Translations under genes and position numbers: made by a program
In this document: piece after piece, positions 18,544-23,171 of the stretch
Numbering within the stretch: position 1 is the stretch's first letter
Layout of the letters: every line of letters begins with the position of its first letter
Assembly: GCA_026713925.1 (NCBI GenBank)
Contig: JAPONM010000061.1
Location: 62,001 to 126,000 of the forward strand
Direction of reading: 5' to 3'
Origin: Gammaproteobacteria bacterium
GTDB taxonomy: Bacteria; Pseudomonadota; Gammaproteobacteria; UBA4575
Length of the DNA stretch: 64,000 nt
The notes under the pieces: generated by a model
The model's input: the letters and a program-made list of their open reading frames with translations, nothing else
Database searches by the model: none
What the model was told of the DNA's origin: nothing

Positions 18544-19647
18544 TCATTCTTCTCCCAAAAGCTGTTCAAGGTCATTGCCAATAAGATTCTGTCGCCAGCC
18601 CTGCAGAGCTTGCGACCCTTCAGGGTCACAAACCAGGTTTTCCAGCATGCTGCGGCTGGCTAGGAAATTCGGTGTGACGTGAAGTTGTTCGGCCCGCTCC
18701 TGGATGAACTGTTTTGCCCGCTTGAGGGTCTTGCGCTGCTCACGGGTCAGAGCCGGTTTTTGTATCGATAGAGGCCAGTCCTGTTCGGGCGTTTGCCGGG
18801 CTTTGCTTATGCAATCGAGCAGCGCATCTGCAAGCCGGTTGCGCTGTTTCCGGGTAAGTGAGTCGATGTTTGTGAGGGAAGGAATGCTGGCAGGTTGCTT
18901 AACCGCAAGTTCATACAGTGTTTCATCACGCATGATCCATTGACGTGGCCGGTTTCGTTCCATAGCCAGCCGGTCACGCCAGCTTGCGAGCCTTTTGAGT
19001 ACAACCAGCTGTTTTGGCTTAAGCCTTCGGGCACTCTTGATCGACTTCCACGAGTTATCCAGATCGATTCTGTATTGATCCGCGTGACACAGGTGCTGAC
19101 ATTCACTTTCTACCCAATGAGTCCGCCCTCTGCCTGCTAGTTCTTCTTTGAGGCATATGTATATCTGTGACAGATACCGTACATCGTTGGCCGCATAGCG
19201 GATGGCCTGGTCTGGCAATGGCCTTTGTGTCCAGCTGGTACGGGACAGGGATTTGTCCAGGCACACTCCACACAAGGTGTTGACCAGATGGGCATAGCTG
19301 ACCTGATCGCCATATCCCAATGCGCTGGCAGCAACCTGGGTATCAAATACGGGGGCAGGGACCTCGCTGCTGAGCATGTACAGTACTTCCAGATCCTGGC
19401 GGGCGGCATGAAAGACTTTTGTACTGGTCTTTGAATTAAGGAGCTTGTTCAGGGCTGACAGGTCATCGATGGTGAGCGTGTCAATACAGGCAATTCGGCG
19501 ACCCGTGGCAATTTGTACCAGGCACAGTTTCGGGTAGTACGTGTCTTCACGCATGAATTCGGTATCGACAGCCAGCCAGTCCCGGGTCCCCGCATGCTCA
19601 CAAAAGGCCTCTAGCTGTCCCGTGTCACGTATAATTTCGATTTCCAT
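18544..19647 (-). CDS. rnd: Ribonuclease D
   Basis: A 367-residue DEDD exonuclease. Exo motif I is VDTEFMREDTYYPKLCLVQIA (about residues 27-47), motif II HAARQDLEVLY, motif III YAANDVRYLSQIY with the family Tyr. An HRDC domain follows (about residues 205-290; VLKRLASWRDRLAMERNRPRQW). RNase D trims the 3' ends of tRNA and other small RNAs. It is divergent from the ChaN-like gene with only 13 bases between the start codons, so the two promoters must overlap the coding regions or each other. Confidence 0.96.
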   Translation of the reverse strand: MEIEIIRDTGQLEAFCEHAGTRDWLAVDTEFMREDTYYPKLCLVQIATGRRIACIDTLTIDDLSALNKLLNSKTSTKVFHAARQDLEVLYMLSSEVPAPVFDTQVAASALGYGDQVSYAHLVNTLCGVCLDKSLSRTSWTQRPLPDQAIRYAANDVRYLSQIYICLKEELAGRGRTHWVESECQHLCHADQYRIDLDNSWKSIKSARRLKPKQLVVLKRLASWRDRLAMERNRPRQWIMRDETLYELAVKQPASIPSLTNIDSLTRKQRNRLADALLDCISKARQTPEQDWPLSIQKPALTREQRKTLKRAKQFIQERAEQLHVTPNFLASRSMLENLVCDPEGSQALQGWRQNLIGNDLEQLLGEE

Positions 19648-19660
19648 TGCGCCTGATTTG

Positions 19661-20623
19661 ATGATGATTCGAGTTCCAAAGCATTTTTCAGCATTATGGG
19701 TGCTGCTGATATTCAGTCTGGCATTGCCGATACATTCTGTTTTTGCCCGGGACTGGCAATCACCTTTCTACCAGGGACATGGACTGACGGGGAAGATCTG
19801 GGATACGGGGAAAAACGCTTGGATTACTGAGGAGCGATTATATACCGAATTGCTGGAGTACGAGTTCATATTGCTGGGAGAAACCCATGATAACCCGGAT
19901 CATCACCTGCTGCAGGCACAAATACTGGATCGGCTTGTGGCAGCCGGGAAGAAACCTGCCGTAGTGATGGAGATGTTGGCACAGGAAGGCTGGCTGGACC
20001 AGCCGGCTTACTGGACGGATGCCGGGTTGCTGCAGCAGCAGGCTGCAGCACGCAATGCCGGCTGGCCATGGGAGCTGTATGCACCCGTTTTACAGAGTAT
20101 CGTGAGAAATGGTCTTGAACTGGTTGCAGGAAATATCAGGAGTGAGGCCCTGTACACGGGAATCCGAAACATCGGGTCTGGCCGGACTCAGGAAATAATG
20201 GCTCGATTCCCGGTTTCTGCCGAAGGCCTTCGTCAGCTGGAACATGATATTGTTCAATCGCACTGTGGCTATGCCAATCCCGCTTTTGTTCAGCTTATGG
20301 TAGGTGCCCAGATGCAAAGAGACCTTGTTATCACGCAGGCCGTGGTGAACAGTAAACCGCCTGTCGTGCTGGTTGCCGGCAGTGGCCATGTGCGCAACGA
20401 TTATGCTGTGCCAAAACAGTTGCTGGGTACCTTCCGGCGTTATTCCTTTCTGTCGGTTGCCTTGATACCGGTACATCCGGGAGCACTGGCTCCACAGGAC
20501 TATCTCAAAGGTATCCCGGATGCATTTGATATTTTATATTTCACACCCAGCCACACCCGCGAGGACCCATGTATACAGTTCAGCAAACAACTGGAAGGCC
20601 TGCGGCATAAAGGCATCAAATAA
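19661..20623 (+). CDS. ChaN-like (haem-binding uptake, Tiki superfamily) exported protein
   Basis: From ATG 19661 the product is 320 residues with an N-terminal hydrophobic signal (ALWVLLIFSLALPIHSVFA). The family motif LGETHDNPDHHLLQ follows, then PAVVMEMLAQEGWLDQ, NGLELVAGNIRSE, HCGYANPAFVQLMVGAQMQRD and VVLVAGSGHVRNDYAVP. These are the conserved blocks of ChaN/DUF399 proteins, which bind haem in some species and share a fold with Tiki/TraB metalloproteases. There is no lipobox cysteine after the signal, so it may be soluble periplasmic rather than a lipoprotein. The open frame starts upstream at 19541 inside rnd; that part is not real. Confidence 0.87.
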   Translation: MMIRVPKHFSALWVLLIFSLALPIHSVFARDWQSPFYQGHGLTGKIWDTGKNAWITEERLYTELLEYEFILLGETHDNPDHHLLQAQILDRLVAAGKKPAVVMEMLAQEGWLDQPAYWTDAGLLQQQAAARNAGWPWELYAPVLQSIVRNGLELVAGNIRSEALYTGIRNIGSGRTQEIMARFPVSAEGLRQLEHDIVQSHCGYANPAFVQLMVGAQMQRDLVITQAVVNSKPPVVLVAGSGHVRNDYAVPKQLLGTFRRYSFLSVALIPVHPGALAPQDYLKGIPDAFDILYFTPSHTREDPCIQFSKQLEGLRHKGIK

Positions 20624-20674: not shown

Positions 20675-21154
20675 TCAGCATGCCCTTCTGATGGCGCGCA
20701 ATGCCAGGTAGACAAACGGCCATACCAGTATGCTGGTGAGGATTGGGGCCCAGTACAGCCATGATTTTGGATCTTCTCCCAGAATACCCAGAACCCATAG
20801 TGAAACGCCCATGTAGGGCAACAGGATGATGCCTACAAAAATGGCCTGTTGATACAAAGGATAGTTACGGGCCTGAATATGAAAGTGAATCGCAAGATAG
20901 GCTGTGATTGCAAACCCGAGCGCATATTGTCCCAGCAGGGTGCCGTGGATGACGTCTACGCAAAGACCAAGGGTCCACGCTATGCCAATGCTGACATTTT
21001 TAGGCAGGGCCATGCTCCAGTAGATAAGCGTAACAGCCAGCCATTCGGGTCGCCAGGGCTGTGCCCAGTCCGGCAACGGTATCAGCATGAGTAGCATCGC
21101 CACCAGGAATGTGGCACCAATGATAAGAAACTTGGGCAAACGCTGGTTGTTCAC
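20675..21154 (-). CDS. mreD: Rod shape-determining protein MreD, GTG start
   Basis: A 159-residue integral membrane protein with about five to six helices, beginning LPKFLIIGATFLVAMLLMLIPLP. The PEWLAVTLIYWSMALPKNVSIG and GLCVDVIHGTLLGQYALGF segments are typical of MreD. It works with MreC, RodA and PBP2 in the elongasome. The GTG start overlaps the mreC TGA (GTGA), so translation is coupled. It is the last gene of mreBCD and is convergent with the ChaN-like gene. Confidence 0.93.
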   Translation of the reverse strand: MNNQRLPKFLIIGATFLVAMLLMLIPLPDWAQPWRPEWLAVTLIYWSMALPKNVSIGIAWTLGLCVDVIHGTLLGQYALGFAITAYLAIHFHIQARNYPLYQQAIFVGIILLPYMGVSLWVLGILGEDPKSWLYWAPILTSILVWPFVYLALRAIRRAC

Positions 21155-22017
21155 GGGTGCTTGGTGATGTTTTCTGCGGCTCTCGACAGGGATTCATCAT
21201 CTGCTCGTATCAGCAGAATCTCCTGGATAGCATTGAGGTCGATCAGGGGCTTGGCTTCTACTTTCACAAAGGCTTCACCCGTGGTATCCCGGATGCTGGT
21301 AACCTTTGCTACCGGGTAATTGGGTGGGTAGCGGCCATCCAGACCAGAGGTTGTAATCAGGTCGCCAATCCGTATGTCTGTAGTGCTCACAATGTGCTGA
21401 AGTTCCAGTATCTCGGCATTGCCTGTGCCGACTACGAGGCTGCGGTGGCCGTTGCGGGCTATTACACCCAGCAGGGCATGATTGGGGTCTGAGATTAAAA
21501 TGGCAATTGAACGGAAAGGACTTGCCTTGTCTACCTGGCCAATGATGCCTTTCGCACCTAGTAGGGGCTGCCCCTCATATACACCGTCCATTGTGCCCTT
21601 GTTGAGGACGATGCGTTGACGATACGGGTCCAGGTCTATGGAAATCAGCTCGGCTATGAGAACCTGTTCTTTTTTCAAGGGTTTGGTGGATGTAAGAAGC
21701 TTGCGCAGGCGAGTATTCTCATGTTCCAGAATGGCAAGTTTTTGCAGTTGCAGCTCGATGAGAGCCTGATTAGCATGCAGTCTGGCGTTTTCAGTCAGCA
21801 GTTTTTTTTGGGTGGCCAGCACTTTTGTGCCGGAGATGTACATTTTTGAAGGCAACCAGGCCAGATATTCGATAGGGGACAGCACAACGCTGATACTCGA
21901 GCGCAGGATACCCAGGCGATTGTAGTGGTAATCGGTAATCATCATGCCGACAGACAGCATGGCCAAGAGGATCAGCTTTACAGATGAAGAGGGATTAAGG
22001 AAAAACAGTGGTTTGAT
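21151..22017 (-). CDS. mreC: Rod shape-determining protein MreC, probable ATC (AUC) start
   Basis: A bitopic periplasmic scaffold: short N-terminal tail KPLFFLNPSSSVKL, one membrane helix (LILLAMLSVGMMITDY), a coiled coil (about residues 60-90), then the two beta domains (NKGTMDGVYEGQPLLGAKGIIGQV; IRIGDLITTSGLDGRYPPNYPVA). It organises PBP2/RodA at the inner membrane with MreB. The start is unusual. The frame has a TGA just upstream, no ATG, GTG or TTG before a TTG at 21966, and that TTG would cut into the tail and helix. At 22017-22015 there is an in-frame ATC, followed by KPLFFLNPSSSVKL, matching homologues that begin MKPIF... A GAGGAG lies 8 bases upstream (22031-22026). I place the start there. 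Confidence 0.85.
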   Translation of the reverse strand: MKPLFFLNPSSSVKLILLAMLSVGMMITDYHYNRLGILRSSISVVLSPIEYLAWLPSKMYISGTKVLATQKKLLTENARLHANQALIELQLQKLAILEHENTRLRKLLTSTKPLKKEQVLIAELISIDLDPYRQRIVLNKGTMDGVYEGQPLLGAKGIIGQVDKASPFRSIAILISDPNHALLGVIARNGHRSLVVGTGNAEILELQHIVSTTDIRIGDLITTSGLDGRYPPNYPVAKVTSIRDTTGEAFVKVEAKPLIDLNAIQEILLIRADDESLSRAAENITKHP

Positions 22018-22088
22018 GGCAAGCTCTCCTCAATGGTGGATCCGTATGACCTGGAAGCTGATTCAGCAAACCGTGCTGACCGGCAGAA

Positions 22089-23171
<1,083 letters not shown>

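Follow-up and report, generated by a model that had tools for sequence, protein, structure and literature searches.

The window, the whole 64,000-nucleotide stretch of DNA that was analysed, carries the genes mreB, mreC and mreD in this order (Table 1). The mreC product matched PF04085 (122.8 bits, E = 1.3e-35) and, from residue 7 onward, TIGR00219 (171.3 bits against a cut-off of 92.75, E = 2.4e-50). The minus strand around the mreC start reads ...CCACCATTGAGGAGAGCTTGCCATCAAACCACTGTTTTTC..., in which the codons of the mreC frame run, 5′ to 3′, as TGA (22032-22030), GGA GAG CTT GCC, ATC (22017-22015) and AAA CCA CTG TTT, the codons after the ATC corresponding to KPLFFLNPSSSVKL. Direct reading of this strand revealed no ATG, GTG or TTG in the frame from the TGA down to the TTG at 21966, and agreed with the coordinates and the description of the start region given in the first-pass annotation. 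The Shine-Dalgarno (SD) sequence is strong, and its spacing falls inside the 5–9 nt range expected for IF3-discriminated starts. Elsewhere in the window, a 360-aa frame on the plus strand (19541-20623), without an NCBIfam match, overlaps the opposite-strand start of rnd (RNase D).

Table 1 Features of the mreBCD locus in the window.
Feature	Position	Strand	Remarks
mreC start codon, ATC (assigned)	22015..22017	-	direct reading; AUH at the same site in 106/146 loci
SD, GAGGAG	22026..22031	-	8-nt spacer to ATC; -9.3 kcal/mol duplex with 16S 3′ end
In-frame TGA, closes mreC frame	22030..22032	-	15 nt upstream of start; overlaps SD
mreC CDS	21151..22017	-	288 codons + stop; PF04085, TIGR00219
TTG, codon 18, first canonical in-frame codon of mreC	21964..21966	-	rejected as start
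ATG, codon 20 of mreC, within membrane helix	21958..21960	-	rejected as start; SD -0.6 kcal/mol
mreB	22089..23132	-	ATG start without SD; PF06723; end 71 nt ahead of mreC start
mreD	20675..21154	-	GTG start overlaps mreC stop (GTGA)

We compared the mreC start across the gamma-proteobacteria, writing AUH for AUA, AUC or AUU (H = A, C or U). Searching 55 whole genomes at the protein level yielded a first set of 30 loci, to which we added a class-wide search (100 start regions), E. coli, and 80 named loci picked by MreB similarity, blind to mreC; in total, 199 mreC loci could be anchored, and in 146 of them the site itself held a start-type codon. The codon at the site was ATC in 49 of these, ATT in 32, ATA in 25, ATG in 35, TTG in 3 and GTG in 2, so that AUH occupied 106 of the 146 loci and outnumbered GTG and TTG together by 106 to 5. 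The ratio of AUH to ATG, 106:35, is no census, as loci outside the MreB-picked set lean towards window-like MreC; the MreB-picked sample had 18 AUH, 19 ATG, 1 GTG and 1 TTG at the site. Within the window's family, the congeners carried ATC, other members mostly ATA, ATT or TTG, and one genus ATG, and the homologous codon was mostly ATH in the other families of the 30-locus set. For loci outside the named set, AUH spanned 52 family codes against 10 for ATG, with two common to both. AUH carriers included three Pseudomonas, Marinobacter, Vreelandella, Marinomonas, Reinekea, Methylomicrobium, Sediminihaliea and others (with ATT as the mreC start in Pseudomonas, Marinobacter, Vreelandella and Marinomonas), and ATG carriers were E. 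coli, Proteus, Pectobacterium, Vibrio, Aeromonas, Alteromonas, Colwellia and kin. The clades with ATG comprised Enterobacterales together with Vibrio and Alteromonas, a single genus in the window's family, and a small number of further groups. Outside Enterobacterales and a few other clades, the gamma-proteobacteria sampled usually start mreC with AUH; the statement of the first-pass annotation that such starts are very rare holds for genes generally, but not for mreC.

The other 53 of the 199 anchored loci had shifted or different N-termini, some with an ATC or ATT one to three codons ahead of the usual site, as if by an N-terminal insertion (L123, L136, L220, L051, L086, L094 and L138, the codon standing mostly behind an SD). 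The mreC N-termini of Burkholderiales, Xanthomonadales and Legionellales were of other kinds. GTT stood at the site in L132 and L093, the latter with ATC one codon earlier; L132, in which the stretch from the stop to the GTT holds no ATH or NTG codon, possibly represents a GTT start or a sequence error.

Conservation around the site followed the pattern of a translation start. At the 106 AUH loci, the codon itself ended variously in A, C or T (the choice of loci fixed its other two bases); codon 5 encoded Phe in all 106 and codon 2 Lys in 98, with synonymous third bases; codons 2–10 were conserved as protein, third bases varying, alike in AUH and ATG lineages. Upstream of AUH, conservation was limited to positions -12 to -7, the SD, and to a weaker preference for C at -2, with no codon pattern. 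The median SD energy was -8.25 kcal/mol at AUH, whereas the nearest canonical codon further downstream had -1.1 kcal/mol (p = 4e-19). An upstream canonical start was rejected, as the stretch from the upstream stop to the site contained no ATG, GTG or TTG in the window or in 82 of the first 88 AUH loci. ATA starts numbered 25 against 7.2 expected from internal Ile usage in the same genes, and because of this excess the AUH site is no ordinary Ile codon; together with the near upstream stops and the lack of upstream coding conservation, it rules out an internal Ile codon of a longer protein. As controls, the same method assigned mreB an ATG start with a weak SD at 48 of 49 loci, counting an ATG on the anchor or one codon ahead of it; for infC in the relatives that were checked, it recovered ATT, ATC or ATA together with a strong SD. 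We also observed C at -2 in 73 of the 106 AUH loci compared with 11 of 35 ATG starts, and a preference for G or A at -3 of the AUH loci.

SD strength differed with the start codon. The median SD energy was -8.25 kcal/mol at AUH-start and -3.0 kcal/mol at ATG-start mreC (p = 1.5e-13, ancestry ignored), and independent phylogenetic pairs of codon and SD all pointed in the same direction, being too few for significance. The ATN loci required 37 changes on the tree, 6 of them to or from G, a share that is low but, at rank 16 of 106 among fourfold sites, not extreme enough to establish selection against a third-base G. The initiation regions of mreB and mreC are opposite in design, mreB starting with ATG (23132-23130 in the window, and nearly without exception in 49 relatives) with hardly any SD.

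Two E. coli genes are cited with an AUU start, infC and pcnB (PMC9410913, which for pcnB cites Binns and Masters 2002). At infC, the IF3 gene, the AUU start senses IF3 (PMC9410913). The IF3-autoregulated infC shares with mreC an AUH start and a strong SD, both genes showing this in one and the same set of genomes; in contrast to infC, the mreC product is a cell-wall elongation scaffold without feedback on IF3, and IF3 control of mreC is putative. With pcnB, mreC shares a position outside translation initiation and an IF3-discriminated first codon, but its AUH start spans tens of families. pcnB provided no second AUH case here, the better PolyA_pol match in the window's genome having an ATG-start frame. 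E. coli mreC (L153) is homologous to the window's mreC in gene, operon and N-terminus (MKPIFSRGPS in E. coli), but has an ATG start and a weak SD (-3.0 kcal/mol). In the window's own genome, infC reads GAGGAGG...ATT, a design as in mreC (L154, near 1477).

Two readings would move or remove the AUC start. Translation might begin downstream at TTG 21966 or ATG 21960, the first canonical codons, producing a shorter MreC and leaving the upstream conserved stretch untranslated, and the published P. aeruginosa numbering appears to begin at the equivalent GTG, codon 17. However, both codons lack an SD (-0.6 kcal/mol each, against -9.3 kcal/mol at the ATC), only one of the four congeners keeps the TTG (the others have CTG or CTT), a start there would truncate the membrane helix, and codons 2–10 are protein-conserved in AUH and ATG lineages; we consider a downstream start very improbable. 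A sequencing or assembly error, ATC for ATG, is conceivable in a window taken from a draft genome of 64 contigs, but alignment with relatives, proposed in the first-pass annotation as a check, returned ATC at the homologous codon in 4 of 4 congeners, and more than 100 independent genomes, complete single-contig ones included, have AUH at the site. Error is thereby refuted by the relatives, and its probability is close to nil. The start at ATC proposed in the first-pass annotation is instead strongly supported by the conservation of AUH at this position, the SD, and the onset of coding conservation at the ATC itself, and mreC of this bacterium almost certainly starts at AUC.

A true AUC start could still be irrelevant to regulation, the combinations AUH/strong SD and AUG/weak SD being drifting equivalents for a fixed, modest level of MreC. 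The weak SD of ATG mreC and the strong SD of AUH mreC do form a compensation pattern like that reported for weak starts in GUG and UUG genes (PMC5622118), and because such compensation is known, SD strength alone is no proof of regulation; the changes between ATG and AUH, at least six of them independent, are also in keeping with drift. On the other hand, drift should yield GUG or UUG far oftener than AUH, the opposite of the 106 to 5 observed, AUG-to-AUU switches are very rare generally (1 of 61,358; PMC5622118), and infC, where AUU is known to be regulatory, shares the design. We hold a start without regulatory role to be a possible but distinctly less probable account. IF3 discriminates against triplets with a 3′ A, C or U, and not against AUG, GUG or UUG (PMC4611024); because AUH prevails over GUG and UUG and is joined to a strong SD, the site looks built for a response to IF3 rather than for mere weakness. 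IF3-dependent control of mreC, and of the overlapping mreD, is the best explanation and a reasonably probable one, in which we infer the IF3 step from the sequences. The first-pass annotation had suggested that MreC synthesis relative to MreB may be throttled at initiation; the strong SD at AUH argues against a plain reduction of expression, and IF3-dependent control fits better. Such control would not be indispensable, because several clades went to ATG without evident harm.

In this explanation, AUH with a strong SD is an old feature of mreC that selection has kept in the gamma-proteobacteria. MreC output would most likely depend on the ratio of free IF3 to ribosomes, much as infC regulates itself, mreD output would follow that of mreC by coupling via the GTGA/ATGA overlap, and MreB (AUG, no SD) would stand outside IF3 control. 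In 53 of the 54 AUH loci with an mreD frame found, mreD began close to the mreC stop or overlapped it, and in the window mreD is probably translationally coupled to mreC, because its GTG overlaps the mreC stop. With about even chances, mreC and the coupled mreD may stand beside infC as an ancient, conserved target of IF3 discrimination in most gamma-proteobacterial families, such that assembly of the elongation machine tracks the translation state. This link would have escaped notice because AUG is the start in E. coli and Vibrio, and because AUH starts are normally passed over by gene finders.

We found no mention of an AUH start of mreC in the open-access literature on mreC with AUU or unusual starts. 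If AUH is kept over tens of families, mreC would be, to our knowledge, the first case outside RNA and translation functions. It would add a further case, far more widespread than infC and pcnB, and is unusual in both breadth and function among IF3-discriminated starts. If the proposed control is true, translation initiation would be tied to cell elongation; in addition, many species probably have a wrongly annotated MreC N-terminus.

The published numbering of P. aeruginosa MreC illustrates the last point. Based on Pro114/Phe115, Glu188/Arg190 and the crystal construct 97-258 (6ZM0), this numbering lags by 16 when Pseudomonas L195 and its ATT start serve as the reference. Codon 17 of mreC is GTG in three Pseudomonas species (L195-L197) and lies inside the membrane helix, and the published residue 1 thus appears to be codon 17, 16 codons too late. 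The annotated P. aeruginosa N-terminus and the published constructs may consequently be missing the cytoplasmic tail together with some of the membrane helix.
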